A DNA stretch of 64,000 bases. Origin: Arthrobacter sp. SLBN-83. Its GTDB lineage: Bacteria; Actinomycetota; Actinomycetes; Actinomycetales; Micrococcaceae. A program made the position numbers and the translations under genes. The notes beneath the pieces are model-generated. The model was not told where the DNA came from. It was given only the letters and a program-made list of their open reading frames with translations, and made no database searches. Positions 4,133 through 63,262 of this stretch are shown piece by piece (the first letter of the stretch is position 1; the number at the start of each line of letters is the position of its first letter). The DNA is taken from contig NZ_VFMX01000001.1 in NCBI RefSeq assembly GCF_006715285.1, forward strand, positions 496,001 through 560,000, in the 5' to 3' direction.

Positions 4133-5482
4133 CTAGTGGGTTTCGGCGGCAGGAACGGTGGCACCGGGTGCGGAGACACCTTCAGGCCGCTTGCGTGCGT
4201 AAAGGTAGGTGGCGGCTGCCGTCACGGCGAGGCAGGCGGCCAGGAAGACCAGGCCGGTCTGGCTGTTTCCGGTGGCGTCCTTGAGGATGCCCACGATGTA
4301 GGGGGCCACGAAGCCGCCCAGGTTGCCGAGCGAGTTGACCATGGCCAATCCCGCCGCGGCCGCAGCCCCGGTGAGGGCGGCGGAGGGCATTGCGAGGAAC
4401 GGTGCGATGGCCGAGTAGATGCCCATCGCCGCGAGGGTCAGGAACACCATGGCGAGTACCGCGTTGACCGGCAGCAGGAAGCCTGCACCCAGGAGGCCGA
4501 CGGCGGCGAGCACCATGCTGATGCTGGCGTGCCAAACGCGGTTCCCGGTACGGTCCGAGCGCTTGCTCCAGAAGTAGACGAACACTGCCGCGATGGCGTA
4601 CGGAATGAAGACGATGAATCCAACCTGCGTTGAGTCGAACGATCCGAGCGCCTTGACGATGGTGGGCAGCCAGAGGCCGAGCCCGTAGATTCCGCAGACC
4701 AGCCCGAAGTACAGCGCGGAGTAGGCGATGGTGCGGGAGTCCTTCAAGCCTGCAAGGAAGTTGTGGTTTCCGGTTTTCTGCTTGTCAGCCAGCTCCGCGT
4801 TCATGGTGATGGAGAGCCACTCGCGCTCTTCCGGCTTGAGCCATTTGGCGTGCTCGGGGCGGTCCGTCATGACGAAGGGCGTGATGATGCCCAGGATGAT
4901 CGCGGGGATGCCTTCAAGGATGTAGAGCCACTGCCAGCCGTGCAGGCCGGCCACGCCTTCCAGGTTCAGGAGCATGCCGGACACGGGAGCGCCGAGGGCG
5001 TTGGAGATGGGTTGGGCCAGGATGAAGATGCCCAGCACGGTCACGCGCTGCGCTGCCGGGAACCAGAGGGTCAGGTAGAAGAGGATGGCGGGGAAGAAGC
5101 CGGCTTCGGCAGCACCAAGGAGGAAGCGGATGACGTAGAAGGTGGCTTCGCCGTTCACCAGGAACATGGCCGTGGCGAAGATGCCCCAGCTGATCAGGAT
5201 GCGGGCAATCCATTTGCGGGCGCCGAAGCGGTACATGCCGCCGTTGCTCGGGATTTCCAGCAGGGCGTAGCCCAGGAAGAAGATGCCTGCACCCAGGCCG
5301 TAGGCGGCTTCGGTCAGGCCGATGTCCCCCTGCATGCCGAGCTTGGCGAAGCCTACGTTGTTCCGGTCGAGGTAGGCAATGAAGTAGAGCAGGACGATCA
5401 GGGGCATGAGCCTCCGGCGAACCTTGCGGAGGGTGGTCTCGCCCAGTTCGCTGAGTGCGGGGGCGGCGGCACGGGAGGTCAT
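4133..5482 (-). CDS. MFS permease, anion:cation symporter (ACS)-like
   Basis: The 449-aa, 12-helix carrier has the N-terminal signature YLDRNNVGFAKLGM and the RFLLGAAEAGFFPA segment typical of the ACS family. That family moves organic anions such as tartrate, galactarate, glucarate, phthalate and other sugar acids. With the SDR, TIM barrel and DhaKL kinase downstream, it suggests uptake of a sugar acid or related anion. The start at 5480-5482 overlaps the stop of an 18-codon leader ORF (ATGA) and has only a distant AGG of its own, so translation is probably coupled to the leader. A GntR regulator lies upstream on the same strand. Confidence 0.87.
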   Translation of the reverse strand: MTSRAAAPALSELGETTLRKVRRRLMPLIVLLYFIAYLDRNNVGFAKLGMQGDIGLTEAAYGLGAGIFFLGYALLEIPSNGGMYRFGARKWIARILISWGIFATAMFLVNGEATFYVIRFLLGAAEAGFFPAILFYLTLWFPAAQRVTVLGIFILAQPISNALGAPVSGMLLNLEGVAGLHGWQWLYILEGIPAIILGIITPFVMTDRPEHAKWLKPEEREWLSITMNAELADKQKTGNHNFLAGLKDSRTIAYSALYFGLVCGIYGLGLWLPTIVKALGSFDSTQVGFIVFIPYAIAAVFVYFWSKRSDRTGNRVWHASISMVLAAVGLLGAGFLLPVNAVLAMVFLTLAAMGIYSAIAPFLAMPSAALTGAAAAAGLAMVNSLGNLGGFVAPYIVGILKDATGNSQTGLVFLAACLAVTAAATYLYARKRPEGVSAPGATVPAAETH

Positions 5483-5535
5483 CGCGTACCTGCCGCTTCT
5501 GTGTGGGGACCCTTGAAAAGGGAATGCGCGCGCAT
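5479..5535 (-). CDS. 18-codon leader ORF coupled to the MFS permease
   Basis: An ATG at 5533-5535, five bases after a perfect AAAGGAG, opens a reading frame for MRAHSLFKGPHTEAAGTR. Its TGA stop overlaps the MFS start codon as ATGA. The best ribosome-binding site in the region belongs to this short ORF and not to the permease. Either the leader feeds ribosomes into the permease by termination-reinitiation, or the region is a translational control element. The peptide has no recognisable family. Confidence 0.55.
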   Translation of the reverse strand: MRAHSLFKGPHTEAAGTR

Positions 5536-5574
5536 GAAGACTCCTTTGGCTGGCGGCATTTTGCGGGGATGCTG

Positions 5575-5599
5575 ATATCAGATGTCTGATGTCTGACTG
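5575..5599. promoter_or_regulatory. Repeated TCTGA motif, probable regulator site before the MFS gene
   Basis: The stretch contains TCAGATGTCTGA, an inverted TCAGA/TCTGA pair, directly followed by a second copy of ATGTCTGA. It lies about 95-115 bp upstream of the MFS start and about 60 bp downstream of the GntR stop codon at 5660. This is a plausible binding region for the adjacent FCD regulator; no consensus for that protein is known to me. Confidence 0.45.
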
Positions 5600-5659
5600 A
5601 GATTGTAGTCACAGGGGAAGGCGAGCGTCAACACAGGAGTGTTGGAGCAGAAGGGCCTC

Positions 5660-6391
5660 TTAGCCGGCAGTGGCTTCCGTGCGGCTGGACATGGCAAGGA
5701 ACTGCTCGTAGTCCTCGAAGGTCTGGGTGATGTGCGCGTCCATGGTGGAGCGGGCAGTGGCAGGGTCGCCGGCGGCAATGGCAGCGAGGACCATCTTGTG
5801 GTGGTGGATCGCGTGGCGCTGGACGTCCGGGAACGCCGATGTCTCCCGCCGCATGGCATACAGCAGCGTGGACAACTGGCCCAGCAGGGCCGGCACAAAG
5901 GGGTTGCCCGAAGCGCGCAGGACTGTGTCATGGAAGGCGATGTCCGCCACGGTGAGGGCGTCAACATCGCCTGACTGGTGCGCTGCTTCCATCCGGTCCA
6001 CGCTGTCTTGCAGGGCTGCGAGATCGGCCGGCCGGTGGCGGGAGGCGGCAAGTTCAGCGGCCCCGGTCTCCACCATGCGGCGGACTTCAAGGAGCCGCAG
6101 CGCTACCTGGTCGGAGGCCACTCCCCTGGAGGCTGCCTGCATGATGGCGTCCATGCCGGTCCATCGTTCCGGAGGGTTGACGAACGTCCCGAGCCCACGC
6201 CTTACGTAGACCACGTTTTGGGCCTTCAGGACGTTCATCGCTTCACGTGCCGTCAGCCTGCTGACCCCGGACTCCTTGGCAATGTCAGCTTCAGGCGGAA
6301 GGGCGTCGTCGGCCTTAATCTCACCGCTGAGGATGTGCTCCAGGACTTTATCCACGACGGCGTCGACCAGGCTGCGTCGCTTTTCTGCCAT
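5660..6391 (-). CDS. GntR-family regulator, FadR/FCD subfamily
   Basis: The 243-aa protein has an N-terminal winged-helix domain (LPPEADIAKESGVSRLTARE at about residues 31-50, followed by the wing RRGLGTFV). Its C-terminal FCD domain contains the metal-type residues of DIAFHDTVL, HHHKMV and the late DAHI. It is encoded upstream of, and in the same direction as, the permease/SDR pair, with a repeat-rich intergenic region between. It most likely controls that transport operon, independently of the second GntR at 2547-3236. Confidence 0.87.
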   Translation of the reverse strand: MAEKRRSLVDAVVDKVLEHILSGEIKADDALPPEADIAKESGVSRLTAREAMNVLKAQNVVYVRRGLGTFVNPPERWTGMDAIMQAASRGVASDQVALRLLEVRRMVETGAAELAASRHRPADLAALQDSVDRMEAAHQSGDVDALTVADIAFHDTVLRASGNPFVPALLGQLSTLLYAMRRETSAFPDVQRHAIHHHKMVLAAIAAGDPATARSTMDAHITQTFEDYEQFLAMSSRTEATAG

Positions 6392-30386: not shown

Positions 30387-30394
30387 GAAGGTAG

Positions 30395-30535
30395 CCTCTC
30401 CCAATGCCTGCGAGGTGAGCTGTCGGATTCGGATGGGAGTCACCCGGCCACGCTGCTTCCTGGGAAGCTTGTGACTTAACCCCAAGGCCTTCTGGATGAA
30501 GGCCAAAATTGGTTCCCCCGCCCCTGCCAGACGAT
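30395..30535 (-). ncRNA. c-di-AMP (ydaO/yuaA) riboswitch, copy 1
   Basis: The minus strand carries the family's conserved blocks in order: GGCGGGGGAACCAATT, TTGGGGTTAAGTC, GGCCGGGTGACTCCCATC, then CCGAATCCGACAGCTCACCT and GCAGGC. These riboswitches normally switch expression off when c-di-AMP is high. Its 3' edge includes GAGAGG, the likely ribosome site of the hydrolase. Confidence 0.93.
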
Positions 30536-30564
30536 GAAATGCGAACGGACCTTGAGCGGTGGCA

Positions 30565-30612
30565 GAGTTAGGCAATCCACTCAAGAGCGTCAACTTCGGA
30601 AAAGTTGACGCG
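30565..30612 (-). promoter_or_regulatory. Promoter with overlapping 10-bp inverted repeat before riboswitch copy 1
   Basis: TTGACG (30588-30593) and TAACTC (30565-30570) are spaced 17 bp apart on the minus strand. GCGTCAACTT (30587-30596) and AAGTTGACGC (30603-30612) are perfect inverted arms with a 6-bp centre, and one arm covers the -35. This suggests a second, protein-based control layer. Confidence 0.65.
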
Positions 30613-31524: not shown

Positions 31525-31532
31525 GAAGGGTT

Positions 31533-31724
31533 CCTCTCTGGAGAAGCCTGCGGAGTTAGCTGTCGGATTCGGGTCAGAGAGATCAAAGACCCGGCCCGCC
31601 AGGGGCAAGCTTCTGCGCAGGGGTATTCCCGGAAGAATCCTTCACTGGAGAGGCTTGCTGCTGACGGACTTCACCCCAAGGCAGTCCCCCGCTGCCGATT
31701 GTGGTTCCCCCGCCTCTGCCAGTA
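31533..31724 (-). ncRNA. c-di-AMP (ydaO/yuaA) riboswitch, copy 2
   Basis: The conserved blocks on the minus strand are GAGGCGGGGGAACCACAA, TTGGGGTGAAGTC, GGCCGGGT, then CCGAATCCGACAGCTAACTC and GCAGGC. A longer variable arm between the second and third block makes it larger than copy 1. It ends at GAGAGG before the M23 start. Confidence 0.94.
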
Positions 31725-31799
31725 ACGACTCGTGCACCTGACCCGCTGGCAGAGCTCGGCTCCGGATCAGGTAACGCTTAAGTTTCAACGACTGGTTCT

Positions 31800-53596: not shown

Positions 53597-54913
53597 TCAG
53601 GCTGCGCGCTTCAGCGGCAGCTTGCCCAACACGGTACGGGCTGCTGCCACGGCGGAGCGGGCCAGCCGGTTGGCGTGGAAGACGGCGGGCCGCACCGGCA
53701 GGACGAAGTCGCCCACCAGCTGGACCACTTCCCCACCGAATCCCTTCTTGAATTCGTAGCCGCCGTGGCCTTCCTCGTCCTGCCCGGAAATGCCGAAGGT
53801 GCCGTAGAAGTTGTAACGCGGGTACCCCTTCTCCAGCGCGTGCAGCATCATGCCCCAGTAAAGGGAGGTTGCGCCGTTGAAGTAGATGTAGTCCTGGACG
53901 GTGCCGCCGATGACGCACACCACCTCGTCGCCGTAGCAGACAAAGTGGATGGCGGCCACGGTGGCGGTCCCCACGGAATCGGGGAACCGTTCGATGTCCT
54001 TCAGGCTCCGCTCGTAGCTGTCCACCAGGTCCTGGACCACTTTGAGCCGGTTGGCTTTCTTCTTGCTGCCGGTTTCCTCCACCTCCCGGCGGAGGTCCGC
54101 TGCGGTGGCTGATTCCTCGGCCAGGCGCTCCGTGATGGATTTGCGGTAGGCCGGGATGTCGATCTTGGCCATCATCAGCTTGGTGAACTCCGGCGACGTG
54201 GTGCGGAGCAGGTGCTCGTAGTAGGCGCGTTCGCGGTAGACAAAGCCCTTTTCGTCACCGGCGCGGCTCAGGGCGCCGTAAAAATCGTCCAGGGTTTCCA
54301 GGGTGGCCTGCTCCAGGAAGACGCCGTTCTTTTCGGCTTTCCGGATGGCTTTCCGGGTGCGGTAGCTGGTGCCCATGATCAATTCCTCGGCGTCCTGGAT
54401 GCCCACGAGGTTCTTGATGAACATCCAGTTGACGTTGACGAAGTTCATGTCCAGCCCCTGGTGCTGGAACCCCAGCCGCTCCAGGTGGGCCACCAGCGGG
54501 CGGTTGTCCTCGATTTCCGGGTGCTCGGCGCCGTCGGCGTCCCGGGCGATGTACCGGATGTTGGGCGAGATCCGCAGCTCGGCAGCTTTGCGCCCTGCCG
54601 CATGCTTGCGGAGAAGTTCGACGACGGCACGCACCAGCTCCCGGTCCGTGTAGTCCATGAGGGGGCCCTTGGCGCATTCGCAGACGGTGTAGCCCAGGCG
54701 GGTGGTGGTGTAGTTCAGCTTTCCGGCGGCGACGAGTTCGCCATCGCGGCGGACCCCGAAGAGCTCCACCTGCTGGCCACGGGCACGCTGGAAGCGGGCA
54801 AAGTCGATGGACTGCAGGAAGCTGTTCTGCGGATGCTTCAGGGCGAAGGCCTCGAAGTCGGCGTCGCTGAGGTTGGCGTATTCAAGCCCGGTAGCGGCGG
54901 AAACTGTATTCAA
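53597..54913 (-). CDS. FemABX-family aminoacyltransferase (FemA-like, with coiled coil)
   Basis: The 438-aa GNAT-fold ligase adds amino acids from aminoacyl-tRNA to peptidoglycan precursors. It has the tandem N-acyltransferase domains (SFLQSIDFARFQRARG, GTSYRTRKAIRKAEKNGV and the closing YNFYGTFGISG with the EEGHGGYEFKKGFGG signature). A helical coiled-coil arm at about residues 260-320 is typical of FemA/FemB. The gene follows the second FemABX gene at 55064 on the same strand, 150 bp apart. Together they would build the interpeptide bridge of an A3-type wall. Confidence 0.9.
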   Translation of the reverse strand: MNTVSAATGLEYANLSDADFEAFALKHPQNSFLQSIDFARFQRARGQQVELFGVRRDGELVAAGKLNYTTTRLGYTVCECAKGPLMDYTDRELVRAVVELLRKHAAGRKAAELRISPNIRYIARDADGAEHPEIEDNRPLVAHLERLGFQHQGLDMNFVNVNWMFIKNLVGIQDAEELIMGTSYRTRKAIRKAEKNGVFLEQATLETLDDFYGALSRAGDEKGFVYRERAYYEHLLRTTSPEFTKLMMAKIDIPAYRKSITERLAEESATAADLRREVEETGSKKKANRLKVVQDLVDSYERSLKDIERFPDSVGTATVAAIHFVCYGDEVVCVIGGTVQDYIYFNGATSLYWGMMLHALEKGYPRYNFYGTFGISGQDEEGHGGYEFKKGFGGEVVQLVGDFVLPVRPAVFHANRLARSAVAAARTVLGKLPLKRAA

Positions 54914-55063: not shown

Positions 55064-56197
55064 TCAGTAGAACTGTTGGCCGGTGCGTGCGGTTTCGATC
55101 CTGCGGAGCACCTTTTCTCCGCCGTTGACCCACAGCCGGTGCCGGAGCGGGGACAGCACGTAGTCATGGCAGCCCACAAAGTCGGTCACCGTCTTGGTGA
55201 AGCTGGTTTTGAACATCCCCATGCCGTAAAGGTTGTGGGTTTTGTCCTTGATGCGTGCAGCCGGCGGCGTCCCGCAGAAGTCGTATTCCGTGCAGCCGAG
55301 TTCCTGCATCCGTTTAATGGCAGTCCACTGCACCAGGTGCGAATCCCCGTACTGCTTGCGGTTCTGGGTGGAACCACCGTCCTTGTAGGTGGCCTTGGCA
55401 CCGTAGTTGATGACGAAGGCGCCCACGCTGGGCTTCCCGTCCTCATACGTGAAGAAGAAGTTGCCCTGGCCGCGGTTGCAGAACTCGTCCCAGAACTGTG
55501 CGTAGTAGTCGTAGCTGCGCAGGGGCATGGAACCCTTGGCGTTGACGGTGTTGGCCATCAGGTCGTACAGCGCCCGGTAAGTTTCGGGTCCCTGCTCCTG
55601 CCGGACCACCTGGCAGCCCTCCTTCTCAGCGCGCCGGACTGCATTTCTGGCGCGGGAGGAGATGGCTTTAAACACTTCCTCCCCAGTGCCGGAGATGTCC
55701 AGCAGGGCGGTGGAGTCGTTGGACTGGATGTTGGGGGCTTTGACCAGCTTGGCCGCCTGCAGTTCCCGCTGCGCGTCCGCGGAGTCGACGATGTCCGGCT
55801 CCACCTTGATGGTGAAGACGTTCAGTTTGCTGCTGCGGACGAAAGCCGCGCACGCTTCGAGGGCGGGCCGCAGGTCCGCAGCGTCCGCCAGGTCAGGACC
55901 CTTGATGAGGTACCAAAGCCGTCCCAGGACAGGGAAGCGCTTTTCCAGCACCAGGTTGTAGCTGGGGTTTCCGCCGCCTTCCATCACCAGGAACCGGACT
56001 TTCCAGCCACTGCCGTTCTTGACTGATGCGTAGGCGGCCGACTGCAGCATGTTGCCGCCGTTCGGGTTGGCCGTGACGTGCTTGTCCCAGTTCTCAATTT
56101 CCTCGGCTGTGGCAAAACGTGCGGTGAATTCTCGCAAGGGGGCCGTGTCCAATCGGGTTTGTGCGCGGTTTCGGTACTTCTGGATGCGTGCGGACAT
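55064..56197 (-). CDS. FemABX-family aminoacyltransferase (FemX-like)
   Basis: The 377-aa peptidoglycan bridge ligase lacks the coiled-coil arm, like FemX. The N-terminal GNMLQSAAYASVKNGSGWKV, ISSRARNAVRRAEKEG in the second domain and the C-terminal GMGMFKTSFTKTVTDFVG are family marks. FemX-type enzymes add the first residue of the bridge. The gene is first of a pair with the FemA-like gene downstream. The 150-bp gap between them holds a GGCAGGGC/GCCCTGCC inverted pair but no gene. Confidence 0.9.
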   Translation of the reverse strand: MSARIQKYRNRAQTRLDTAPLREFTARFATAEEIENWDKHVTANPNGGNMLQSAAYASVKNGSGWKVRFLVMEGGGNPSYNLVLEKRFPVLGRLWYLIKGPDLADAADLRPALEACAAFVRSSKLNVFTIKVEPDIVDSADAQRELQAAKLVKAPNIQSNDSTALLDISGTGEEVFKAISSRARNAVRRAEKEGCQVVRQEQGPETYRALYDLMANTVNAKGSMPLRSYDYYAQFWDEFCNRGQGNFFFTYEDGKPSVGAFVINYGAKATYKDGGSTQNRKQYGDSHLVQWTAIKRMQELGCTEYDFCGTPPAARIKDKTHNLYGMGMFKTSFTKTVTDFVGCHDYVLSPLRHRLWVNGGEKVLRRIETARTGQQFY

Positions 56198-56942: not shown

Positions 56943-58403
56943 TCAGCATTCGACGACGTTGACGGCGAGGCCGCCCATGGCGGTTTCTTTGTATTTGTCG
57001 CTCATGTCTTTGCCGGTTTCGCGCATGGTGATGATGACTTCGTCGAGGGAGACCCGGTGGGTGCCGTCGCCCCAGAGCGCCATTTTCGCGGCGTTGATCG
57101 CTTTGGCGGCGGCGATCGCGTTCCGTTCGATGCAGGGGACCTGGACCAGCCCGCCGATCGGGTCGCAGGTCAGGCCCAGGTTGTGTTCCATCGCGATCTC
57201 GGCCGCGTTCTCCACCTGGGCCGGGGTGCCGCCCATGACCTCGGCCAGGCCGGCGGCGGCCATCGAGGACGCGGACCCCACCTCGCCCTGGCAGCCGACC
57301 TCGGCCCCGGAGATCGAGGCCTGTTCCTTGTAGAGCACCCCGACGGCGCCGGCGGCCAGCAGGAACCGCACCACCACACCGTCCCGGTCCTGTTGCGTGG
57401 CGGTGTCCATGCCGGGGGCGAAGTGCAGCGCGTAATACAGCACCGCAGGGATGATCCCGGCCGCCCCGTTCGTGGGCGCGGTGACCACCCGGCCGCCGGA
57501 AGCGTTCTCCTCGTTCACCGCCAACGCCACCAAGTTAACCCACTCCTGCCAATACCGGGCATCGTGCGGGCCCGCGTCCCACGCCGCGTCCTGGTCCTCC
57601 TCCCGGCCGTCGGCGCATTCCTTTTTCAGCCGTTCGTACCAGTCCGGGGCCCGGCGGCGGACCTTCAACCCGCCCGGCAGCACCCCGTCCCGCTTCAACG
57701 AGGTGGCCACGCAGTTTTCCATCACGGACCAGATATGCAGCAGGCCCGCCCGGATCTCCCCCTCATCCCGGGAGGCCTTCTCATTGAGGAGCATCACGTC
57801 CGCGATGCCCAACCCGGTGTTCAGGCAGTGCTCCAGCAGCTCCGCCGCGGTCCGGAACGGCAACGGCAACTCCTCCTTGGACGCGTCCAGTTCCTGCTGC
57901 GCCGCGTCCTCCTCACCCTCACGGACGATGAACCCGCCACCGACCGAGAAGAACGTCGCCGCATGCAGGACCTCCCCGCCCGCATCCGCCACGGTGAAGG
58001 TCATCCCGTTCGTGTGCCGCGGCAGCACCGTCAACGGGCGCAGCACCATATCGCCCACCCCGTACGGCAACGCCACCCCGCCACCGGAACCCTCCACCAC
58101 GGCAGCCAGGTTCAACATCCCGGTCTCCGCGATCGACGCCAGCCGCTCCTCCACCTCATCCGGCAGGATCAGCTCAGGATGAAACCCCTCCAACCCCAAC
58201 AGGATCGCCGTCATCGTCCCGTGGCCATGCCCCGTCGCCGCCAGGGACCCATACAAATCCACCCGCAACGAAGCCACAGCACCCAACACCCCGGCCCCCA
58301 CCAACTCCTCCGCAAAAACAGCAGCAGCCCGCATCGGCCCCACAGTATGAGACGACGACGGGCCAATACCGATCGAAAAAAGATCAAAAACGCCAACAGC
58401 CAT
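56943..58403 (-). CDS. sdaA: L-serine ammonia-lyase (iron-sulfur, single chain)
   Basis: The 486-aa enzyme deaminates L-serine to pyruvate. It fuses the beta domain ([19 protein letters not shown]) and alpha domain ([17 protein letters not shown]). The 4Fe-4S cysteines lie in [12 protein letters not shown] and [17 protein letters not shown], with a further C-terminal Cys. Codon choice in the first third differs from neighbours: T- and G-ending codons (GCT, GTT, TTG, GGG) replace the usual C-ending ones. AGGA lies upstream of ATG 58401-58403. A 454-bp gap without a gene separates it from gcvT on the same strand. Confidence 0.96.
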
Positions 58404-58857
58404 GCTGGTTCCTAACTAAGAATCTGGTTCGGTTGGGGTGGCCGGGTTGGATGCACCTGGCCGAATTCCTCCGCGTGCTCGGTCGCGTAGACGCCCGCTA
58501 AGCGGACGTGACGCTCCCTTAGACGCACGGCTCCGGAACCCGCCCAGTCGCCAACGGACGTCACCAAAGCGACGCGGCGGCAGGAAACGATGCACCGGGC
58601 ATAGATTCGGCCGCCCAAGGGAAGTTCACGCACCTTGTCCGCCTACTTCCTCAGCCCTGGCCGCTGGCCAACTCCTCGCACAACTGAAACCTCCGCAGGA
58701 GGGGCCGGCGGAGCCGGACTTTTCGAAAGCGTGCTCCCCACCGTCTCCCTAACCTCGCAAGCTCGGCCAGGGAACCCTGACGGCGTGGGCCCAACGCACG
58801 CGTGAAAATGTCCGGTCCGGTGGTCCCAAAGCCAGCCACGGACCACCGCGAGGCGCC
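58404..58857 (-). other. 454-bp non-coding gap between gcvT and sdaA
   Basis: No reading frame here has a recognisable product, and GcvH is not encoded. On the sdaA-sense strand it contains CCGCTTAGCGG, two copies of GCGTCTA and several GC hairpins. It may be a structured sdaA leader or the remains of a lost gcvH, which would be of similar length. No known riboswitch consensus fits. Confidence 0.45.
58819..58847 (-). terminator. Possible terminator after gcvT
   Basis: GGTGGTCC (58819-58826) and GGACCACC (58840-58847) form an 8-bp stem with a 13-base loop just after the gcvT stop. A weak ATTTTC follows on the minus strand. Confidence 0.5.
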
Positions 58858-60006
58858 CTACTTGACCCGCTTGTAGAACGGGAGGTCGACGACTTCGAAC
58901 GGTTCTGCCTTGCCGCGGAGATCAATTTCCAGGGCCGTGCCGGGTGCCGAGTATTCGACGTCGACGTAGGCCATGGCGATCGGGTAGCCGAGGGTGGGCG
59001 AGGGCTGGCCGGAGGTGACTTCGCCGACGGTGGCGCCGTCCTTGAGGACGGGATAGTGCGCGCGGCCGGCGCGGCGGCCCTGGCCTTTGAGCCCCACGAG
59101 GCGGCGGCCGGAGGTGCTGCCGGCGCCGGCCTCCTTCTTGGCTGCCAGGGCGGCTTTGCCCACGAAGTCGCCTTCCTTGGAGAGTGCGACGACGGGACCA
59201 AGGCCAGCGGCGAACGGGTCGCCCTGCAGCGACAGTTCGTTGCCGTACAGGGGCATCCCCGCCTCGAGGCGGAGGGAGTCGCGGGAGGCGAGGCCGGCCG
59301 GAACCAGTTCCCCGTCGTCGGCGATGGCGATCAGTGCCTGCCACAGCGCGGCGGCATCGTGGTTGTCCACGAAGATCTCGAACCCGTCCTCACCGGTGTA
59401 TCCGGTACGGGCCAGCAGGAGTTCCTTGCCTGTGCCGCCCACCAGGAAGGGAACCTCGACGGCGGCGTAGTACTTCAGTTCGCTCACCAGGGAATGCTGG
59501 GCGGCCGGAACCAGGCGCAGCAGGAGTTCCTGGGCCTTGGGCCCCTGCACCGCTACCAGGGAGGTGCGGGCCGAGGCATCATCCACCACCACATCGAATC
59601 CTGCGGCACGCTCCTGCAGTGCTGCAGCCACCACGGCGGCATTGCCGGCATTGGGCACCACCAGGAAGACGTCGGTGCCATCCTGCGCGGCGGGACGCCG
59701 GTAGGTGATGAGGTCGTCGATGATCCCGCCGTCTTCATTGCAAATCAGGGAGTACTTGGCCTTGCCCACGGCCATGGCAGAGATTTTCCCCACCAGGGCG
59801 TAGTCCAGGAACGCGGCAGCGTCCGGGCCGGTCACCCAGACCTCGCCCATGTGGGAGAGGTCGAACAGGCCGGCAGCCTTGCGGACCGCGTGGTGTTCTG
59901 CCAGTTCGGAGCTGTACTTCAGCGGCATCTGCCAGCCGCCAAAATCGGTGAAGGACGCGCCCAGCTTCTTGTGCTCGTCGTACAACGCTGTGTATTTCTC
60001 GGTCAT
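58858..60006 (-). CDS. gcvT: Glycine cleavage system T-protein (aminomethyltransferase)
   Basis: The 382-aa enzyme transfers the methylene group from the H-protein lipoyl arm to tetrahydrofolate, releasing ammonia. It has GASFTDFGGWQMPLKY, AGLFDLSHMGEVWVTG, the catalytic Asp region YTGEDGFEIF and GLASRDSLRLEAGMPLYGNEL. It starts 11 bp after gcvP, so it shares the riboswitch-controlled transcript. Length is typical. Confidence 0.97.
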   Translation of the reverse strand: MTEKYTALYDEHKKLGASFTDFGGWQMPLKYSSELAEHHAVRKAAGLFDLSHMGEVWVTGPDAAAFLDYALVGKISAMAVGKAKYSLICNEDGGIIDDLITYRRPAAQDGTDVFLVVPNAGNAAVVAAALQERAAGFDVVVDDASARTSLVAVQGPKAQELLLRLVPAAQHSLVSELKYYAAVEVPFLVGGTGKELLLARTGYTGEDGFEIFVDNHDAAALWQALIAIADDGELVPAGLASRDSLRLEAGMPLYGNELSLQGDPFAAGLGPVVALSKEGDFVGKAALAAKKEAGAGSTSGRRLVGLKGQGRRAGRAHYPVLKDGATVGEVTSGQPSPTLGYPIAMAYVDVEYSAPGTALEIDLRGKAEPFEVVDLPFYKRVK

Positions 60007-60017
60007 GGTGGCAGGCC

Positions 60018-62882
<2,865 letters not shown>

Positions 62883-62942: not shown

Positions 62943-63163
62943 GCTCTGTATTGGACCTGAGAGTTTCCGCGGTGCCTGCCTGGCAGGATCCGCTTGCACC
63001 GTCGGTGAGCACAACAGTTCTTCGGCTCCCCAAGGGAGGAAGGGCAACTGCCTGCTGCTTTCCAGAGGCGCCTCGCCGCGGCGGTACAGGGGCCTGCGAG
63101 ATTCCTGGGGAGGATTTGCTCCTACGGCGCCTGCCTGTACTTTCGGCAGAACTCTCCCGCCGC
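62943..63163 (-). ncRNA. Tandem glycine riboswitch (two aptamers)
   Basis: On the minus strand, aptamer 1 (about 63083-63163) has GGCGGGAGAGTTC, GCGCCGTAGGAGCAAA and CTCGCAGGC. Aptamer 2 (about 62943-63068) has CTCTGGAAAGCAG, CACCGACGGTGCAAGCGG and GGAAACTCTCAGGT. These are the family's conserved parts. Glycine binding normally switches the downstream cleavage genes on, here gcvP and gcvT. Confidence 0.95.
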
Positions 63164-63262
63164 AGATCAAAGGCTATTCATTTGTTGGGTCATGACGGCC
63201 GGTGGCAGCCCTCACAACTCTCCATTGTCCTACGCCCCGCCCCTCCCGGCAAATGGCAAATC

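Follow-up and report, generated by a model that had tools for sequence, protein, structure and literature searches.

Covarying REP-like hairpins between glycine cleavage genes of Arthrobacter, and a reduced duplicate gcv operon

REP, BIME and REPIN sequences of enterobacteria and pseudomonads are short extragenic palindromes with imperfect stems, dispersed at gene 3′ ends and often arranged as inverted pairs, and intercistronic hairpins that stabilize mRNA are known, for example the malE REP sequence and the puf operon hairpin. Two elements found here between glycine cleavage (gcv) genes of Arthrobacter, E1 and E2, share much with these systems: E1 and the E2 family are dispersed, multi-copy extragenic palindromes that adjoin gene 3′ ends, except for a sense-oriented E2 subfamily that precedes start codons. 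E2 differs from REP, BIME and REPIN sequences in its greater length (95–120 nt), its conserved internal loops and strong covariation, the near confinement of its long form to one operon type, and a genome without a RAYT transposase. Like the stabilizing hairpins it lies between cistrons of one operon, where it may play a similar part, but its units are oppositely oriented at the two ends of a gap. MITEs are likewise short, non-coding, repeated and palindromic, whereas E2 covaries in a near-fixed position. The glycine riboswitch (RF00504) shares the operon, with a true copy upstream of gcvP, but E2 does not match that family. Overall, E2 is nearest in kind to REP-type palindromes and intercistronic hairpins, from which its greater size, its stronger structure and its tie to a single operon set it apart.

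The window, a 64,000-nucleotide stretch of the single-contig genome (C1, 4.42 Mb) of Arthrobacter sp. SLBN-83, carries a gcv cluster (cluster A) in the order gcvP-gcvT-sdaA, without gcvH and glyA. All features are on the minus strand: a glycine riboswitch aptamer (63072–63169; RF00504, 61.1 bits), gcvP for glycine dehydrogenase (60018–62882; 85% amino acid identity by tblastn to gcvP of a second cluster, cluster B), gcvT for aminomethyltransferase (58858–60006; Pfam PF01571 and PF08669) and, beyond a 454-bp gap with no gcvH inside, sdaA for L-serine dehydratase (56943–58403; PF03313 and PF03315). This confirms the initial annotation in so far as it placed gcvP and gcvT under a glycine riboswitch with gcvH missing beside them. 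Elsewhere in the window, two c-di-AMP riboswitches are separated by about 1 kb (30391–30568 and 31529–31740, both on the minus strand), and two adjacent genes (53597–54913 and 55064–56197, minus strand) resemble, by eye, FemAB-type peptidoglycan bridge enzymes.

As a whole, the gap is unremarkable in folding compared to shuffled sequences (z = −1.46), and only the parts occupied by E2 (z = −2.78 on the minus strand vs. −0.48 on the plus strand) and E1 (z = −2.29) outfold them. Open reading frames in the gap gave no Pfam match, and scans for sigma-70 promoters and intrinsic terminators found none above chance; the two weak terminator sites coincide with neither E2 nor E1, and both elements lack a T-tract. 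Rfam covariance searches of the gap and of E2 returned no match at the gathering score and nothing plausible at E ≤ 10. Between the two elements, the middle of the spacer (58563–58689) holds no recognised feature, and next to sdaA a leader (58404–58442, minus strand) contains TTAGTTAGGAA (58409–58419), which is conserved among about 65 sdaA leaders compared by eye and is likely to be the ribosome-binding region. BLAST comparison of the gap with 206 genomes of the genus gave matches in 206/206; these occur at numerous sites, in either strand, and fall into two sub-regions.

Searching the rest of the genome for gcvH, one of the checks that the initial annotation had proposed, identified two full-length GcvH genes. 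One (C1:956044) belongs to the complete cluster B, gcvP-gcvT-gcvH-glyA-sdaA-lipA (C1:951.7–960.4 kb), and the other is solitary (C1:4167366), so the organism is short of nothing. Cluster B also has glycine riboswitches upstream, and these run both ways: one (L064 2967–3160, minus strand) precedes gcvP, and a tandem pair (L064 3453–3554, plus strand) precedes a divergent gene resembling an amino-acid permease. DNA identity between clusters A and B is 75.9% for gcvT and 82.6% for gcvP, compared to 94.8% for sdaA (L064 9874–11331 in cluster B); this excess suggests gene conversion between the clusters.

E2 is a 120-nt hairpin in sense orientation (58443–58562, minus strand; cmsearch with covariance model R1, 107.5 bits) that stops, on its 3′ side, about 40 nt ahead of the sdaA start. 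The hairpin sequences singled out earlier, CCGCTTAGCGG (58495–58505) and the repeated GCGTCTA (58488–58494 and 58520–58526), are indeed present, all on the minus strand within E2, and they go beyond chance, as their host element recurs in cluster B and in 197/204 genus genomes. Covariation, for which the initial annotation had also proposed a test, was found among E2 copies: the alignment of 82 copies, drawn from many species, yields one long hairpin interrupted by two internal loops that are conserved, and in it 21 of the 37 predicted pairs show changes on both sides and 95.3% of cells pair. The covariation score is 0.312 vs. 0.105 for shuffled alignments (reached in 0/500), and structures slid along the alignment score 0.035–0.084. 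G-U exceeds A-C both in sense copies (83:10) and in antisense copies (119:29), so the E2+ strand is structured whatever the direction of the operon. E2 is thus a truly structured element with compensatory base changes beyond chance. A search of the open literature found nothing relevant on Arthrobacter repeats or RNAs at gcv, and with neither an Rfam match nor a known paper E2 is apparently undescribed so far.

The E2 family has four matches in its own genome and up to 16 in relatives, with the long form alone being low-copy. The window E2 recurs in cluster B at 86% identity (E = 3e-22), where the other long copy follows gcvT in inverted orientation; short forms precede the gcvH of cluster B and occur at C1:1578667. 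Matches to the E2 covariance model, found in nearly all genus genomes, extend to only 2 of 32 genera of the taxonomic family, the own genus included; BLASTN with the window E2 as query left 91/206 genus genomes without a match. A neighbouring genus yielded one full-length, weaker match (73.6 bits) directly after an rseP-like gene (gene assigned by eye). When 84,980 species were scanned with an exact pattern, the long-form core occurred only in Arthrobacter and Pseudarthrobacter, and 42 of its 43 loci carry gcv, glyA or sdaA genes. Among 60 loci fetched by their E2 matches, and not by neighbourhood, 57 long E2 loci lie at gcv, as do all 13 of the further long-form loci in the genus; the remaining 3/60 all represent one YceI/GntR locus, directly after the YceI gene. 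At this locus (L148, L159 and L167), E2 is flanked by a YceI-like gene on one side and by a GntR regulator, convergent with it, on the other; two genomes have the long form, and the third has a partial copy that adjoins E1. The short form, which lacks the apical extension, is dispersed and mostly adjoins the 3′ ends of unrelated genes (by eye, among others, rlmB, phoH, glgP, alanine dehydrogenase and phosphoglycerate mutase).

Within gcv gaps, 134 of 140 E2 copies obey one placement rule, with antisense copies found about 30 nt past the stop codon of gcvT, glyA or gcvH and sense copies about 30–50 nt ahead of the start codon of gcvH or sdaA. Long antisense copies after stops are about twice as numerous as sense copies. 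When the 82 copies are placed on a tree, orientation switches just twice (vs. 22.7 times with shuffled labels), whereas the gap label changes 13–19 times in the two main gaps; E2 therefore comprises two old subfamilies, each fixed in place relative to the genes and exchanged between gaps. Local multiplication is seen in G085 (L166), with up to four E2 copies per gap in glyA-sdaA and gcvT-gcvH alike. Where a gap holds long copies of both orientations, the operon RNA is predicted to form a duplex of great length (z = −13.2 and −11.8), compared to z = −3.07 for the own cluster B, with one long and one short copy.

At the other end of the window gap lies a hairpin unit (58690–58835, minus strand; arms 58796–58813 and 58716–58734) whose inner part is replaced by E1, a 59-bp REP-like palindrome (TGGGCCCACGCCGTC..GACGGTGGGGA; 58735–58793, minus strand). 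About 16 further E1 copies occur in the genome (about 17 in total), several directly against stop codons and some in tandem; E1-like palindromes are also arrayed in tandem at G000:C1:36977–37150, one about every 57 bp. The arms of the window unit are 89% and 95% identical to those of the unit after glyA in cluster B, an antisense E2-like copy with a weak R1 match (29.1 bits). R1 does not find the window unit, so its assignment to the antisense type is inferred from the arms, and the window gap contains no intact long antisense E2.

We tentatively favour, at somewhat less than even confidence, the reading that cluster A is a reduced duplicate gcv operon and that its gap consists of REP-derived intercistronic hairpins acting on the polycistronic mRNA. 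The gap would then be an ordinary operon spacer built from two members of a hairpin family specific to the genus, namely the antisense-type unit after gcvT with E1 in its loop and the 120-nt sense-type E2 ahead of sdaA, while the complete cluster B would supply the gcvH and glyA lost from the window cluster. The hairpins would set mRNA processing or stability and segment the gcv message, with antisense E2 protecting the upstream message at its 3′ end and sense E2 shielding or presenting the 5′ end of the message for gcvH or sdaA, which together would allow different protein levels for each cistron. Where both long forms occur, they would form about 80 bp of dsRNA that RNase III could cut; such a dsRNA model is not general, because many gaps have one copy only. 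Two findings count against a role in gcv mRNA: the short form is dispersed at genes unrelated to glycine, and the E2+ strand is structured in antisense copies too, which a pure operon-mRNA role does not predict and which a role in single-stranded DNA or an antisense transcript would.

These same findings fit the main rival reading, which we consider a real if somewhat improbable possibility, that E2 and E1 are REP- or BIME-like repeats spread as single-stranded DNA and tolerated at gene ends without any role in glycine metabolism, the long form having multiplied locally and been copied from one gcv gap to another by gene conversion. The dispersal of the short form, mostly by 3′ ends of unrelated genes, the spread of E1 to some 17 copies, a tandem array and the loops of E2-type units, and the structuring of the E2+ strand regardless of orientation are all as expected of such repeats, and the contrast between sdaA and gcvT identities indicates that conversion between loci seems to occur. 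However, orientation-specific subfamilies with fixed placement suggest selection in place, as do internal loops that hardly vary, with stems that are compensated, in more than 100 species. Searches for the Y1/RAYT transposase family (PF01797) found no match in the own genome and matches in control genomes; a RAYT transposase as mobiliser is thus rejected here.

A ligand-sensing or protein-binding cis-regulatory leader of gcvH or sdaA, akin to a riboswitch, is improbable. Of the two subfamilies, the sense one has the orientation of a leader. Conserved internal loops and covarying stems 30–50 nt ahead of glycine and serine gene starts would suit this role, as would the glycine riboswitch already upstream of gcvP, but the long copies that lie antisense after stops are about double the sense copies, the shared core recurs at 3′ ends of unrelated genes, Rfam offers no plausible relation even at E ≤ 10, and no alternative terminator fold was found at sdaA. 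The structured sdaA leader envisaged by the initial annotation thus holds at the level of structure, in the strongly covarying sense E2 located 40 nt upstream, and fails as a dedicated sdaA leader: E2 is a repeat family, because it also occurs antisense after gcvT and glyA and, in short form, at unrelated 3′ ends. We give still less weight to E2 being a bidirectional terminator or insulator between cistrons, a very improbable reading for which its proximity to stop codons, in many cases with convergent genes on either side, would speak, but which is at odds with the missing T-tracts of E2 and E1 and with sense copies inside the operon directly ahead of start codons.

A decayed gcvH, as first proposed for the gap, deserves almost no credence despite the truncated gcvH at the same place in the relative G057, since a DNA profile of 53 gcvH genes that detects the G057 remnant at E = 4.7e-15 (positive control) finds nothing in the window gap at E ≤ 10, tblastn and six-frame searches reach noise level only, and the repeats account for every recognisable feature of the gap. 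Its gcvH-like size is a coincidence. Comparative evidence instead indicates that gcvH and glyA were deleted from the window cluster in this lineage and did not decay in place. Among 60 further genus genomes, many have a gcvT of the window-cluster type followed by gcvH, with or without glyA, and then sdaA, while in the closest relatives sdaA follows gcvT directly. In the GcvT tree, 16 clusters without gcvH, including that of the window, form one clade (support 99/95) whose sister bears gcvH, and no cluster of a wider clade of 26 has glyA after gcvT; therefore, glyA was lost first, and gcvH more than once. The truncated gcvH of G057 (L067 6190–6327), an intermediate of this loss, can still be read as a short open frame (MESTKSV...GGVL) and is preceded by a leader that resembles a ribosome-binding region.

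The deletion could have arisen by recombination between repeats on either side of gcvH-glyA. Repeats and sdaA appear to have been exchanged between loci, which blurs its end points. Reading the window gap as the former gcvT-gcvH spacer is not secure, as the unit after gcvT is closest to the unit after glyA in cluster B, and it is further weakened by the grouping of the window E2 with copies that precede sdaA. In G040 (L066, ~4900–6110), the gcvT-sdaA gap carries an IS3-family-like insertion with two transposase frames (by eye), positioned between E2 and sdaA.

The preferred reading, of intercistronic hairpins in a reduced duplicate operon, has a bolder form, which we regard as rather unlikely: that the E2 sequences make up a new class of structured intercistronic RNA, restricted to Arthrobacter and Pseudarthrobacter plus one neighbouring genus, in which one subfamily is dedicated to the end of the upstream message and the other to the start of the downstream message, and that this RNA tunes the ratio of P, T, H, GlyA and SdaA, and gcv expression, beside the glycine riboswitch. 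The apparent gene gap is explained by an operon present twice in the genome, one copy of which lacks gcvH and glyA. If true, a large and well-sequenced soil genus would harbour a sizeable covarying element that is absent from Rfam and tied to a single pathway, and its orientation-specific subfamilies would offer a testable case of dispersed palindromes turning into operon-internal regulators.
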